Positions 22,417-27,532 of a stretch of DNA of 41,122 nucleotides are shown in pieces. Positions within the stretch are counted from its first letter, which is position 1. Each line of letters starts with the position of its first letter. Both the position numbers and the translations under genes were made by a program. Source of the stretch: Ruminococcus sp. GTDB taxonomy: Bacteria; Bacillota; Clostridia; Oscillospirales; Ruminococcaceae. The DNA is taken from contig JAFXDK010000052.1 of the NCBI GenBank assembly GCA_017521805.1, forward strand, positions 1 to 41,122, given 5' to 3'. A model generated the notes under the pieces. That model saw only the letters and a program-made list of their open reading frames with translations, made no database searches and was not told the origin of the DNA.

Positions 22417-22453
22417 AGGGACACGGCAATTTAAACCGTGTCCCTGTTTTTTT
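22417..22453. terminator. Strong intrinsic terminator, convergent genes
   Basis: AGGGACACGG (22417-22426) pairs with CCGTGTCCCT (22436-22445), followed by GTTTTTTTA. It ends rubrerythrin and abuts the stop of the minus-strand esterase gene. The stem matches an arm of the palindromes at 13152-13225. Confidence 0.88.
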
Positions 22454-23873
22454 ATTTTTGAGGAAGTTCTGATATCATCTTTGCATCATATTTCTGTATA
22501 GTAAGCGCATCAGCGGCTGTTATACCATTCGTGCCGTCAACATCGCCATTGACTGTGCCCTGCTCGGAAAGTCCATATTTATCATTGTTTCCCAGAGCCT
22601 GCAAAATCGCCGTAGAATCGGCAATTGTTACCTTGCCGTCACAATTAGCATCACCGTAGAGAATATCCGAAACTGTTGTTGTTTCTGTTGTAGTTGATGA
22701 TGTCGTAGTTGTAGTAGTTGTTGTTGTGGCTGGCTCTGTAGGCTCGGTAACATCAGAGGAATCCACTGTGTAAACCGTTTCATACATAAGTCTTGCCCAC
22801 TCCTCACGCATTGCCGCATATCCAACATCTGAGGGATGAACACCGTCTCCGCTGAGATAATCGGGATTTTCTGATAAGAATTTCTCAAAATCAGGACCTT
22901 TTACAATTTTATCCCCATATTCCTCGTAAAGGCGCTCAATTTCGGCATTATAAAGGGGTACGTTATTCATTACATCCTCGTTTGATGAACCGGGAATCTT
23001 TGGCAGTACAGGTATTTTTCCTGCGGCAAGTATAGCATCAATCATATACTTTGTATTGCTGTAATATTCTTTAGTGCCGTTTGGATTGCCCCAGCAGTCA
23101 TTTGTACCGTAAGCAAGGCTGACATATTTAGCATGGGAGGTTTTAAGCCAGCGGTCAATATTTTCCTTGCCGTCAATACTGCGAATACCGCCGATACCGC
23201 CGTTTTCCTGAATGGGAAAATAACGGCTGTCAATGGTGTTAATATGAGCTGCAAAACCTGTACCATAGCAGTTATTCATACCGCCTGCGGTTATGGAATC
23301 ACCCAAAAACAGCCAACTGTCAGAAACTCCTTCGCTTACATTGTGGATATCGAAATTAATGCTTGCCTGCTTGCCGCTTTCGTCGTCGGCTTTTTCGATA
23401 TTAAGGCGAATCCAGTTGTATTTCTCCATGTTTACGAGATGCTGTCGTGAGCTGAGAGTATTACCTGTAACTGTTTCAACAATTTCCCAGTTATCCTCAG
23501 GATACGCGCCGCCCTCAGCCGCATTGACTTCGATAGTATAGTCGGAAGGCTCCATATTGCGACTTTTGTAATTGCCGATATAGTCGTATGAACTGGTATT
23601 GTACCACACAGCAATAATCTGCTTTTTCTGTTCTGCGGGAACTGCGGAAAGGTCATATGCTATGTAGTCAGGGGAAGTCAGAAAGCAGAATGAAAAATAA
23701 TGCTCATCATTTGCCGCAGTAGGCTGACTTGCCTTTCCCGAATATACGGGGCAGTTCCTGCTGATTACAGGGTTAGGTGTAACCTTTGCATAGGTTGTTA
23801 ATGTGCTTAAAGATACAATTGTAGCAGCAGCTGCTGTAACTGCAGAAAGCACTTTTTTGATTGACTTGCTCAT
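22452..23873 (-). CDS. Secreted SGNH/GDSL esterase with C-terminal dockerin
   Basis: 473 residues. Signal peptide (about 1-29); an N-terminal beta-rich module (about 35-178); an SGNH hydrolase domain (about 185-365) with GDSITAGG (nucleophile S193), YGTND (N258 block) and DGVHP (D343, H346); a Thr/Glu linker with an unbroken Thr run; and a type I dockerin (about 407-470) with loops DANCDGKVTIAD and DVDGTNGITAAD. It is probably a cellulosomal deacetylase acting on acetylated hemicellulose such as xylan (CE-type), though substrate is inferred. Its dockerin specificity positions differ from the DASDAS type in the other two dockerin proteins here. GAAAGGAG precedes ATG 23873. Confidence 0.93.
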   Translation of the reverse strand: MSKSIKKVLSAVTAAAATIVSLSTLTTYAKVTPNPVISRNCPVYSGKASQPTAANDEHYFSFCFLTSPDYIAYDLSAVPAEQKKQIIAVWYNTSSYDYIGNYKSRNMEPSDYTIEVNAAEGGAYPEDNWEIVETVTGNTLSSRQHLVNMEKYNWIRLNIEKADDESGKQASINFDIHNVSEGVSDSWLFLGDSITAGGMNNCYGTGFAAHINTIDSRYFPIQENGGIGGIRSIDGKENIDRWLKTSHAKYVSLAYGTNDCWGNPNGTKEYYSNTKYMIDAILAAGKIPVLPKIPGSSNEDVMNNVPLYNAEIERLYEEYGDKIVKGPDFEKFLSENPDYLSGDGVHPSDVGYAAMREEWARLMYETVYTVDSSDVTEPTEPATTTTTTTTTSSTTTETTTVSDILYGDANCDGKVTIADSTAILQALGNNDKYGLSEQGTVNGDVDGTNGITAADALTIQKYDAKMISELPQK

Positions 23874-24521: not shown

Positions 24522-25193
24522 ATGAAAAAATATCTAATTATGACATCAGTTCTTGCATTCTCCATAATAGTCTGCCTTATTGACGCTGTTTTACAGCCAA
24601 ACTATTTTGTAAAAATCCCAATAAAAATAATATTTTTCTTAGCATTGCCAATGCTGTTTTTTATAAAAAACAAAAGCGATTTCAAGGATTTTAAATCCCT
24701 TTTCGTATTCAGAAAAAAGGGTATTCTGAAAGCCTTTTTGTTAGGAATCGCCGTATATACTGTGATTTTATCGGGATATCTGCTTACAAAAAATATATTT
24801 GATTTTTCAAATGTAACATCAAGCCTGACCGAAGGTATGGGGATTACAGCGGATAATTTTATTTACGTATCCCTGTATATATCCCTTATGAATTCATTTT
24901 TAGAGGAATTCTTTTTCAGAGGATACGGATTTATGACGCTGAAGAAACATACATCTCCTAAAATCGCCTATATTTTCAGTTCAGCAATATTTGCAATTTA
25001 TCATATAGGCATGTTATTAGATATGTTCAGTATCGGTGTATTACTGCTGCTGATGTTCGGGCTGATAGCAGGCGGTTGTATATTCAACTATCTTAATGAA
25101 CGCAACAATAGTATATATCCCTCTTGGTTTGTGCATATGTTTGCCAATTTTGCAATTAATACCGTAGGATTTATTTTGTTCGGGATAATATAA
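24522..25193 (+). CDS. CPBP (Abi/CAAX) family intramembrane metalloprotease
   Basis: 223 residues with about seven hydrophobic segments. The family's diagnostic motifs are present: EEFFFRG (E128, E129, R133), the second motif with H161 (AIYHIGML) and H205 in the last conserved block (WFVHMFANF). In bacteria such proteins are linked to bacteriocin immunity or maturation and to peptide processing; no bacteriocin gene is visible nearby. AGGAGG precedes ATG 24522. Second gene of a two-gene operon. Confidence 0.9.
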   Translation: MKKYLIMTSVLAFSIIVCLIDAVLQPNYFVKIPIKIIFFLALPMLFFIKNKSDFKDFKSLFVFRKKGILKAFLLGIAVYTVILSGYLLTKNIFDFSNVTSSLTEGMGITADNFIYVSLYISLMNSFLEEFFFRGYGFMTLKKHTSPKIAYIFSSAIFAIYHIGMLLDMFSIGVLLLLMFGLIAGGCIFNYLNERNNSIYPSWFVHMFANFAINTVGFILFGII

Positions 25194-25256: not shown

Positions 25257-25286
25257 TTGACTTTGCTTTGAAATATATGATATAAT
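25257..25286 (+). promoter_or_regulatory. Promoter of the amino-acid ABC operon
   Basis: TTGACT (25257-25262), 18 bp, TATAAT (25281-25286). Confidence 0.75.
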
Positions 25287-25319
25287 AGATGTATTATTGA
25301 ATAAAGGTAGGTTTTTACT

Positions 25320-26102
25320 ATGAAAAAGATTTTATCAACAACTGTGGCGGCGCTTGCTTGCCTTACATTTTTTACAGGCTGCGGCGGAACAAAGGAAAAT
25401 ACCGTACATACAGCCGATGACCTGAAAAACAAGAAAATCGGCGTTCAGTTGGGCACTACCGGTGACGCTCTTGCGGGAGATGTTGAGGGCGCTACTGTTG
25501 AACGTTACAAGAGAGGTGCCGATGCTATTCAGGCTCTCAAACAGGGAAAAATTGACGCTGTAATCATCGACAACGAGCCAGCTAAGGTATTCATCGAAAA
25601 AAATGAGGGACTTCAGATTCTTGACGAGGAATTTGCAGTTGAGGAATATGCAATCGCGCTCAAAAAGGGAAACACAGAACTGACAACCGCTATAAACGAC
25701 GCTCTTGCCGAACTTAAGGCTGACGGTACTCTTGAAAATATCGAAAAAAACTGGATTGGCGAGGAATATGGCAAGTATCCCTATGAATCCCCTGAGGGTA
25801 CGGAATATCCTAACGGCACTCTTATAATGGCTACAAATGCGGAGTTTCCTCCTTATGAATTTCTTGAAAATCAGGAAGTAGCAGGCTTTGACGTTGATAT
25901 GATGACAGCCGTATGTGATAAGCTTGGCTACGAGCTTGAAATCGAAAATATTGCTTTCGATTCCATTATTGCATCTGTAAACAGCGGAAGAGCTGACGTT
26001 GGCGTTGCTGGTATGTCCGTAACCGAGGACAGACTGAAAAACGTTGATTTCACCGACGCTTATACAACTTCAACTCAGGTTATCATCACAAGAGCAGACT
26101 GA
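25320..26102 (+). CDS. Amino-acid ABC transporter substrate-binding lipoprotein, apparently circularly permuted
   Basis: 260 residues. Lipoprotein signal with C21 (FFTGC). The domain is SBP_bac_3, but its halves are in swapped order. Residues 32-147 correspond to the usual second half (ADDLKNKKIGVQLGTTGD, then RYKRGADAIQALKQGKIDA, to LAELKADGTLENIEKNWIGE). Residues 166-258 correspond to the usual first half (GTLIMATNAEFPPYEF, then VAGFDVDMM, FDSIIASVNSGRADV, ending DFTDAYTTSTQVII). An 18-residue linker joins the old C- and N-termini. Together they make one complete two-lobed binding protein. The downstream permease and ATPase indicate a polar amino acid importer (Gln/His/Cys class; exact substrate unknown). 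Confidence 0.88.
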   Translation: MKKILSTTVAALACLTFFTGCGGTKENTVHTADDLKNKKIGVQLGTTGDALAGDVEGATVERYKRGADAIQALKQGKIDAVIIDNEPAKVFIEKNEGLQILDEEFAVEEYAIALKKGNTELTTAINDALAELKADGTLENIEKNWIGEEYGKYPYESPEGTEYPNGTLIMATNAEFPPYEFLENQEVAGFDVDMMTAVCDKLGYELEIENIAFDSIIASVNSGRADVGVAGMSVTEDRLKNVDFTDAYTTSTQVIITRAD

Positions 26103-26118
26103 TAAGGAGTAACATATA

Positions 26119-26820
26119 ATGGGATTCATAAACAGCTTTAAAGACTCATTTTATGAGAATTTTATTGCAGAAGACAGGTGGAGATACCTTACAGACGGTC
26201 TGAAAAATACTCTTTTAATAACAATTCTTGCTGTAATTATCGGTATTATTCTCGGATTTATCGTTGCAATTATCAGAGCAACCCACGATAAAACAGGAAA
26301 GATGAAAATTCTCAATTTTCTCTCAAAGATATACCTGACAGTTATCCGCGGAACTCCTGTGGTTGTTCAGCTTTTGATAATATATTTCGTAATTTTCGGC
26401 TCTGTAGATATCAGCAAAATATTTGTAGCCGTACTTGCATTCGGACTTAATTCGGGCGCTTACGTTGCAGAAATCGTCCGCTCAGGTATAATGTCTATCG
26501 ATAACGGTCAGTTTGAGGCAGGTTCAAGCCTTGGTCTGAGTTACCGCCAGACTATGACGAATATAATACTTCCGCAGGCTTTCAAAAATGTACTTCCTGC
26601 CCTTGCAAATGAATTTATTGTATTACTTAAAGAAACATCTGTTGCAGGATATATAGCAATCGCTGACCTTACAAAAGGCGGAGATACTATTATCAGCCAG
26701 ACCTTTAACCCGTTCCTGCCCTTAATCGCAGTAGCGTGCATATATCTTGTAATGGTAATGTTCCTTACACATCTAATTACAAAGCTTGAAAGGAGACTTG
26801 CAAAAAATGATAAGCGTTAA
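26119..26820 (+). CDS. Amino-acid ABC transporter permease (HisM/GlnP type)
   Basis: 233 residues with about five TMs: one near 27-50, a pair near 80-105, and later ones near 190-215. The cytoplasmic EAA loop is [20 protein letters not shown]. The motif RGTPVVVQL is typical of His/Gln/Glu permeases. AAGGAG precedes ATG 26119, 16 bases after the binding-protein stop. Only one permease is encoded, so it probably acts as a homodimer. Confidence 0.94.
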
Positions 26821-27532
26821 AAATCTTAACAAGTCTTTTGGCGAGCTTCACATCCTGAAAGATATTAATGAGGAAATCCACAAGGGTGAAAAGGTTGTAA
26901 TCATAGGTCCGTCGGGCTCGGGAAAAAGCACATTCCTCCGCTGTCTTAACCTTATGGAAACTCCTACATCGGGCGAAATCTTTTTTGAGGACGTAGATAT
27001 CACAAAGGCAAGTATAAAAGAGGTTAATTTTCTGAGAAGAAAAATGGGAATGGTTTTTCAGCATTTCAATCTCTTTCCGCATCTTACAATAAAGAAGAAT
27101 ATCACCCTTGCCCCCATAAAACTGGGAATTATGACAAAGGAAGAAGCCGACAAGAGAGCCATGGAACTCCTTGAAAAAGTCGGACTTGCTGACAAAGCTG
27201 AGCATTATCCAACGCAGATTTCAGGCGGTCAGAAGCAGAGAATTGCCATTGCACGTTCTCTTGCCATGAATCCTGAGGTTATGCTTTTCGATGAGCCAAC
27301 TTCGGCGCTTGATCCCGAAATGGTCGGAGAGGTTCTCAATCTTATGAAAGAGCTTGCAGATGATGGTATGACAATGGTTGTGGTAACTCACGAAATGGGC
27401 TTTGCCCGTGAGGTTGCTTCCCGTGTTATGTTCATGGAGAACGGAAGAATTCTTGAACAGGGCGAGCCTGAGACTTTCTTCGGAAATCCACAAAATCCGC
27501 GTTTAAAAGAATTTTTGTCAAAGGTATTGTAG
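26807..27532 (+). CDS. Polar amino-acid ABC transporter ATP-binding protein (GlnQ-like)
   Basis: 241 residues from ATG 26807. The frame opens at TTG 26786, but AAAGGAG at 26789-26795 serves 26807. Walker A is GPSGSGKS, then FQHFNLFPH, signature ISGGQKQR, Walker [17 protein letters not shown] and the H-loop [10 protein letters not shown], all characteristic of GlnQ/HisP ATPases. The gene overlaps the permease stop by 14 bases, indicating coupled translation. Confidence 0.95.

Follow-up and report, generated by a model that had tools for sequence, protein, structure and literature searches.

The gene at 25320..26102 of the window, by which we mean the whole 41,122-nt stretch of DNA analysed here, encodes an amino-acid-binding protein of the SBP_bac_3 family in which the two halves of the domain stand in swapped order. 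We hold with considerable confidence that the product is a working binding lipoprotein of a polar-amino-acid ABC importer, that its chain became circularly permuted, most likely by way of a tandem array, and that this happened more than once in Clostridia. The order of the halves, their completeness, the conserved linker, the purifying selection, the permease and ATPase operon and the wide occurrence are all read directly from the sequences. A circular permutation at this position had been proposed in the first-pass annotation, and profiles from Pfam and NCBIfam, solved chains from the PDB and HMMs built from linear relatives only bear it out in coordinates and in kind. The features of the operon are collected below.

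Table. Coordinates of the binding-protein gene, its parts and the neighbouring transporter genes in the window
Feature	Position	Strand	Remarks
Promoter-like site TTGACT-18-TATAAT, TG preceding the second hexamer	25257..25286	+	Adjoins the 5' side of the operon; 11/12 consensus positions, consensus match only (10 sites in the region against 6.6 expected)
RBS-like AAAGGTAGG	25303..25311	+	8 bases 5' of the ATG; from sequence, consensus match only
Circularly permuted amino-acid-binding lipoprotein gene	25320..26102	+	260 aa; ATG at 25320, stop at 26100-26102
Signal peptide and lipobox-like site	25320..25382	+	Predicted lipidation at Cys21; from sequence
Canonical second half, residues 30-147	25407..25760	+	Most of lobe 2, second hinge crossing, C-terminal helices of lobe 1; linear-only HMM
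18-residue linker, residues 148-165	25761..25814	+	Joins the canonical C- and N-termini
Canonical first half, residues 166-260	25815..26099	+	Start of lobe 1 with the MATNAEFPPYEF strand, AGMSVTEDR motif, first hinge strand, first strand of lobe 2; linear-only HMM
Amino-acid ABC importer permease	26119..26820	+	PF00528 E 1.2e-21; TIGR01726 75.7 bits (cut-off 42.2)
GlnQ-like ABC importer ATPase	26786..27532	+	PF00005 E 5.3e-39; listed from TTG, overlapping the permease

Homology to SBP_bac_3 extends over both halves of the profile, and the canonical order, in which the first half precedes the second in one chain, is not the order of this protein, which has each half once. The Pfam profile (PF00497) matched the 260-aa protein at E 1.2e-38 (132.3 bits, cut-off 26.4) in two stretches, the better of which placed residues 168–260 on profile positions 1–93. 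The best stretch of NCBIfam TIGR01096 set residues 165–260 on positions 23–119, that of PRK11260 set residues 25–149 on positions 137–263, and the alignment with AncQR (PDB 4zv1) paired residues 27–148 with chain positions 107–233 and residues 164–258 with positions 8–103. Against a linear-order profile of 217 positions, made from 40 normally ordered relatives, the native chain aligned in two stretches, residues 26–147 on 94–215 and then 167–259 on 1–93 (292.9 bits in total), whereas the same chain rotated in silico aligned in a single stretch over positions 1–215 with 314.5 bits. One shuffled control chain gave no match to this profile at E up to 1000. With HMMs built from linear relatives only, the second-half model was covered from 2 to 119 of its 121 positions by residues 30–147 (168 bits) and the first-half model from 1 to 92 of 93 by residues 166–257 (134.5 bits). 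Since both half-models are covered almost fully and once each, nothing of note is missing from or duplicated in the protein, and in this respect, as in the length of the 18-residue linker, the first description stands. Linear relatives among loci L074–L112 share 49–68% identity with both halves, and the second gene in L084 shares 41–42%.

Neither two incomplete domains nor a collinear match to a known family in normal order, the results that the annotation had named as speaking against a permutation, turned up in the sequence comparisons. Among the 60 best of 171 solved chains, a single stretch spans the query collinearly; it lies in the tandem SBD1-SBD2 of GlnPQ (6h30) and runs from the second half of SBD1 into the first half of SBD2, as is to be expected of a permuted protein. 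The possibility that the gene is a partial view of a tandem protein was rejected, the frame holding each half once and having its own signal peptide. These results also carry a warning for annotation: the rotated order is masked when the SBP_bac_3 profile matches in two parts, or when another permuted protein matches over its full length.

The break had been placed at the inter-lobe hinge, which is not exact. Residue 259 aligns with chain position 96 of E. coli GlnBP, an index that we take to be the mature numbering. In the accessible part of a study of this protein, the hinge includes residues 85–89 and the small lobe comprises 90–180 (PMC13229503). It follows that about 8 residues at the end of the window protein map to lobe 2 and that the chain retains both crossings of the hinge. 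Judging from sequence, the protein would adopt the usual two-lobe Venus flytrap fold, with lobe 1 as a single continuous piece and lobe 2 carrying both chain ends. An L-amino acid would be bound between the lobes and handed to the permease, and the lipid anchor would sit on lobe 2 and not beside the first, ligand-binding strand of lobe 1. The annotation had raised the possibility that a permutation might alter the engagement of the permease.

The gene heads a normal permease-ATPase operon, as had been described. The permease, a homologue of the permease segment found in fused relatives, starts 16 bases past the stop codon of the binding-protein gene. Both partners are of the same transporter class, with TIGR01726 above its cut-off for the permease and NF007027 GlnQ as the best family match of the ATPase at 331 bits, below the equivalog cut-off of 379. 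Directly 5' of the operon lies a gene for a CAAX-type membrane protease (Rce1-like; 24522-25193, +). Elsewhere in the window, a GDSL esterase that carries a dockerin type I domain at its C-terminus (22452-23873, -) points to a cellulosome-type fibre degrader.

Comparison with relatives indicated purifying selection. dN/dS of the window gene was 0.062–0.10 in the five pairs with computable dS, and pN/pS was 0.18 in a sixth pair with saturated dS. In the one pair that was split by region, the window gene and L033, dN was 0.051 in the second half and 0.038 in the first, with dS at 1.19 and 0.78 respectively; the two halves are about equally constrained. An alignment of 34 permuted proteins, consisting of the window protein and 33 of the 41 loci L033–L073, contained 40 invariant columns; D84, T46, G48, N173, F176, G231 and R238 are invariant in all 34, and C21 is conserved in at least 90%. 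A lipobox-like Cys was also present in 48 of 49 unfused rows having the break point of the window protein, hereafter CP1. D84 aligns with the DN motif of AncQR and R238 with its TEER motif, and we take this Asp and this Arg to be conserved contacts of the alpha-amino acid; by alignment, the window protein retains both positions. The best NCBIfam equivalogs were those for cystine (140 bits, cut-off 312) and glutamine (117 bits, cut-off 303), and because these scores are far below the cut-offs we name no ligand. As a further clue to the ligand, a riboswitch or T-box was sought, and no Rfam family reached its gathering score anywhere in the window. Taken by its sequence features, the protein most likely works as the binding lipoprotein of an amino-acid ABC importer.

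The search of gut Firmicutes for the same order, which had been suggested as a check, found it widely. A match spanning both halves in permuted order occurs in 44 of 125 genomes of the genus, counted by match span among matches listed down to E 3.6e-48 and including G027 (two contig pieces) and G096 (in-frame TAG). The isolate genome R. bromii YE282 carries a permuted gene (L059), and the one-contig genomes G240 and G307 have a permuted match by span. A pseudogene or a misassembly was ruled out by the dN/dS values together with the many genomes, the isolate and one-contig genomes included. BLAST of both halves sorted the first 112 loci into 71 permuted and 41 linear, several of these being the same record twice, L002 and L003 being one gene, and L017 being broken by a stop. 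This last locus (G096:C192) belongs to a permuted relative, and its in-frame TAG means that the copy is broken or that the sequence contains an error. Any match was found in 205 of 396 genomes of the family sample, 249 of 394 of the order sample, 147 of 391 of the class sample and 80 of 348 of the phylum sample; the family, order and class samples overlap and their totals include linear and array matches, and because the query was permuted the set is biased to permuted forms, so the totals are not the share of permuted genes. Among the matches listed, permuted genes are present in the family, order and class samples, and the form extends to other families and orders; outside the class the permuted order was confirmed for L195, L210, three CP3 loci and the L200 array.

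The permutation proposed in the annotation is a real one; it is not isolated, being one of several within the family. Half-models and reading of the sequences revealed at least four break points, all of which map to lobe 2, and among the set seen none of the cuts appears to fall in lobe 1. CP1b proteins start at model position 9–11, the cut falling after the first helix of lobe 2 and before its next strand, and carry that helix at the chain end (L233–L237; L157 is similar). In CP3 the cut lies between about 25–27 and 28–32 in model positions (L209, L212, L220). In CP2 it lies in mid lobe 2, between about 62–69 and 64–74, giving the order second-half tail, first half, second-half start (L188–L194, L223–L226, L228–L232 and the second gene of L234). 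L231 is additionally fused to its permease, and L234 holds a CP1b gene and a CP2 gene within one 4.8-kb stretch. With identical rows removed, 240 units comprised 137 CP1, 5 CP1b, 17 CP2, 3 CP3 and 63 linear units, along with 11 linear-array and 4 permuted-array units, L157 being counted in CP1 and four frames being skipped (L017 in two pieces, L208 and L221). The linker measures 13–26 residues in the CP1–CP3 rows, except in L210 (35) and L235 (27), and linkers differ between clades. Within the main CP1 clade, a linker motif PYxSPEGxEYxNG, which the window protein has along with many relatives, and an N-terminus PANTVxS are shared.

Ten permuted frames of the unit set extend by 235–237 further residues, and the permease model matches the fused frames. 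Of 20 long frames picked from listings, 18 have the second half at the start and the first half last before the rest of the chain. L244–L248 and L250–L262 contain one to five binding units of permuted phase fused to a permease, with C for the second half and N for the first, and the longest frame reaches 1550 aa (L247). A single CN unit is found in L253 and L261; L257 has an extra weak first-half match of 8 bits inside its second C. In the remaining two cases, L249 is spread over two separate frames and the contig end truncates L243. In L245 (1146 aa) ABC-ATPase motifs can be read in the same chain as the binding units and the permease, which would put a whole importer half in one polypeptide. 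Linear arrays also exist (L163, L166–L168 and L205).

Linear and permuted-phase arrays fused to the permease in relatives are the basis on which we propose that the permutation proceeded through a tandem array of binding domains, the outer parts of which were then lost. Permutation by duplication with tandem intermediates is a model described in the available part of PMC3320104. The permuted order also appears to have arisen more than once in the family-3 binding proteins of Clostridia. Since the break points differ, separate events are needed under any tree. A tree was built from 85 binding domains set in canonical order, after 39 of 124 rows had been dropped for long branches or by thinning; on it CP1 needs 7 changes, of which the starred branches force 5, and CP2 needs 4, with the bootstrap not settled for either count. 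AU tests on this tree rejected CP1 as one clade (p 1.3e-5), CP2 as one clade (p 4.9e-5) and all permuted rows on one branch side (56 against 29 rows; p 6.6e-34). The permease itself is not permuted, and on its quick tree, after 28 of 114 rows had been dropped for long branches or by thinning, all permuted rows on one branch side (61 against 25) were likewise rejected (p 5.5e-47). Tree support is mixed, with many inner forks open, and if linear and permuted paralogues recombined with each other inside the halves, the outcome could look like repeated origin.

Those open forks leave some room for a single ancient permutation behind all CP1 proteins, from which the linear and other orders were derived, or after which partner exchange or gene conversion scrambled the trees, so that permutation itself would be rare. 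The main CP1 clade does look like one event, because its linker motif and N-terminus are shared. We nevertheless consider a single origin for all CP1 unlikely: the CP1, CP1b, CP2 and CP3 cuts need separate events anyway, both trees and CP1 and CP2 taken alone give the AU rejections above, and the linkers change from clade to clade. A different objection concerns folding, since the second half of one molecule might pair with the first half of another in a domain-swapped dimer or chain, much as a halved tandem protein would. The one collinear solved relative among those 60 chains is indeed the GlnPQ tandem, and in (CN)n arrays normal folding would be open to the inner N-C pairs, with only the end halves needing a partner. 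A single CN chain cannot do so, having no N-to-C continuity for the usual folding. A short conserved linker is what is expected of a loop joining neighbouring termini, and the lengths given above and the motif conserved in the main clade therefore count against swapping, which we judge distinctly improbable.

The same order of halves would also result if neighbouring SBP genes were fused and their outer parts lost, in which case the protein would be a chimera of halves from two different binding proteins and not one permuted protein. The nearest linear row does differ by half, being L084 for the first and L080 for the second. The best identities of the two halves are nearly equal, at 65 and 64%, and the halves rank 30 linear relatives much alike: Spearman rho is 0.74 for the window protein, with a median of 0.80 over 55 CP1 rows (range -0.10 to 0.91) against 0.83 over the 30 linear rows (range -0.39 to 0.94), although some rows, such as L195 at 0.16, agree poorly. 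A chimera of two families is disfavoured by this agreement, and the chimeric reading in general seems very improbable. Least credible of all, to the point of being almost negligible, is a decaying, functionless remnant of a tandem binding protein. One relative (L017) with its in-frame TAG is the observation on its side; dN/dS of 0.06–0.10, the 40 invariant columns in 34 proteins, the intact signal peptide and operon and the presence in 44 of 125 genomes by match span oppose it, and the selection test refutes it in practice.

The permuted lipoprotein resembles the SBP_bac_3 proteins of polar amino-acid uptake (GlnH, TcyJ/FliY, ArtJ, AncQR) in its lipobox, its permease-ATPase operon and its invariant binding-site motifs, and differs from linear members in the rotated halves, in having the chain ends and lipid anchor in lobe 2, and in its continuous lobe 1. 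A close parallel is TpMglB-2 (Tp0684), which the available text of PMC4990184 describes as a permuted type I binding protein, 'Type Ic / Cluster Bc', that binds D-glucose. Like the window protein, it is permuted relative to its parent SBP family, and according to the same text it is a naturally permuted, membrane-tethered ABC binding protein that is also found in gut Gram-positives. It differs in having the type I (cluster B) sugar-binding fold, whereas type II/family 3 is at issue here, and in features of its own, namely a fourth hinge crossing gained, an insertion, and 13% identity of its permuted part to the canonical part; one topology is described for it in what is accessible of PMC4990184, against several here. 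For the window protein, Pfam and NCBIfam matches at E up to 1 were to SBP_bac_3 and other families, none of them to MglB or type I sugar-binding proteins. Crystal structures of permuted halves of a type I ribose-binding protein exist, as the accessible part of PMC9815098 indicates. An engineered permuted GltI was dropped as a precedent, the available portion of PMC6819510 giving no sign of it. Among the papers listed in searches of the open PMC literature, we found no natural permutation of family-3/type II amino-acid binding proteins. TpMglB-2 (type I) is already in print as a natural permutation, and what is found here is several permuted orders of family 3.

The tandem SBD1-SBD2-permease of GlnPQ belongs to the same domain family and likewise has an array of binding domains fused to a permease (PMC8025302, accessible part; PDB 6h30), and is a likely intermediate type. 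Its phase before the permease is linear, (N-C)n, as far as that source describes it, in contrast to the permuted phase (C-N)n with up to five units found here. The window protein itself has a single permuted domain and a separate permease gene, and not two linear SBDs fused to a permease. DNA methyltransferases likewise occur in several permuted orders with documented duplication intermediates (Jeltsch 1999 and Bujnicki 2002, as cited in the part of PMC3320104 available); their fold is unrelated, whereas the present case is a two-lobe hinge protein, and the break points found here map to one lobe.

As a possible cause of the topology of TpMglB-2, the authors of that study bring up strain from the tether close to the binding site, in the available text of PMC4990184. 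The distance from the lipobox-like Cys to the first conserved residue was compared in rows that have such a Cys and are neither fused nor part of an array. Its median was 7.5 residues for 72 permuted rows, about half the 17 found for 25 linear ones (Mann-Whitney p 4e-7, a value that is too small because the rows share ancestry). The pattern found no Cys in a further five linear and two permuted rows, which were dropped; among these, at least the linear L076 has a Cys missed by the pattern and a short tether, against the trend. The direction of the difference fits the idea of a topology that spares the binding site tether strain, at least as that idea is set out in the part of PMC4990184 seen. 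Our opinion is evenly divided on a broader proposal, by which the flytrap was re-cut at at least four places in lobe 2 through growth and contraction of arrays that lay beside the permease or were fused to it, and the permuted forms were favoured for moving the tether off the first strand, in convergence with TpMglB-2. If this is true, the family-3 binding proteins of Clostridia would be a natural laboratory of circular permutation, and they would have converged with an unrelated class of SBP. One well-studied fold, used in studies of hinge motion and in biosensors, exists here in related genes in linear form, in at least four permuted forms and in permuted-phase arrays. With this variety, natural proteins allow three questions to be put to the test: at which points a hinge protein can be cut, whether its topology is driven by tethering, and whether tandem arrays are the route of permutation.
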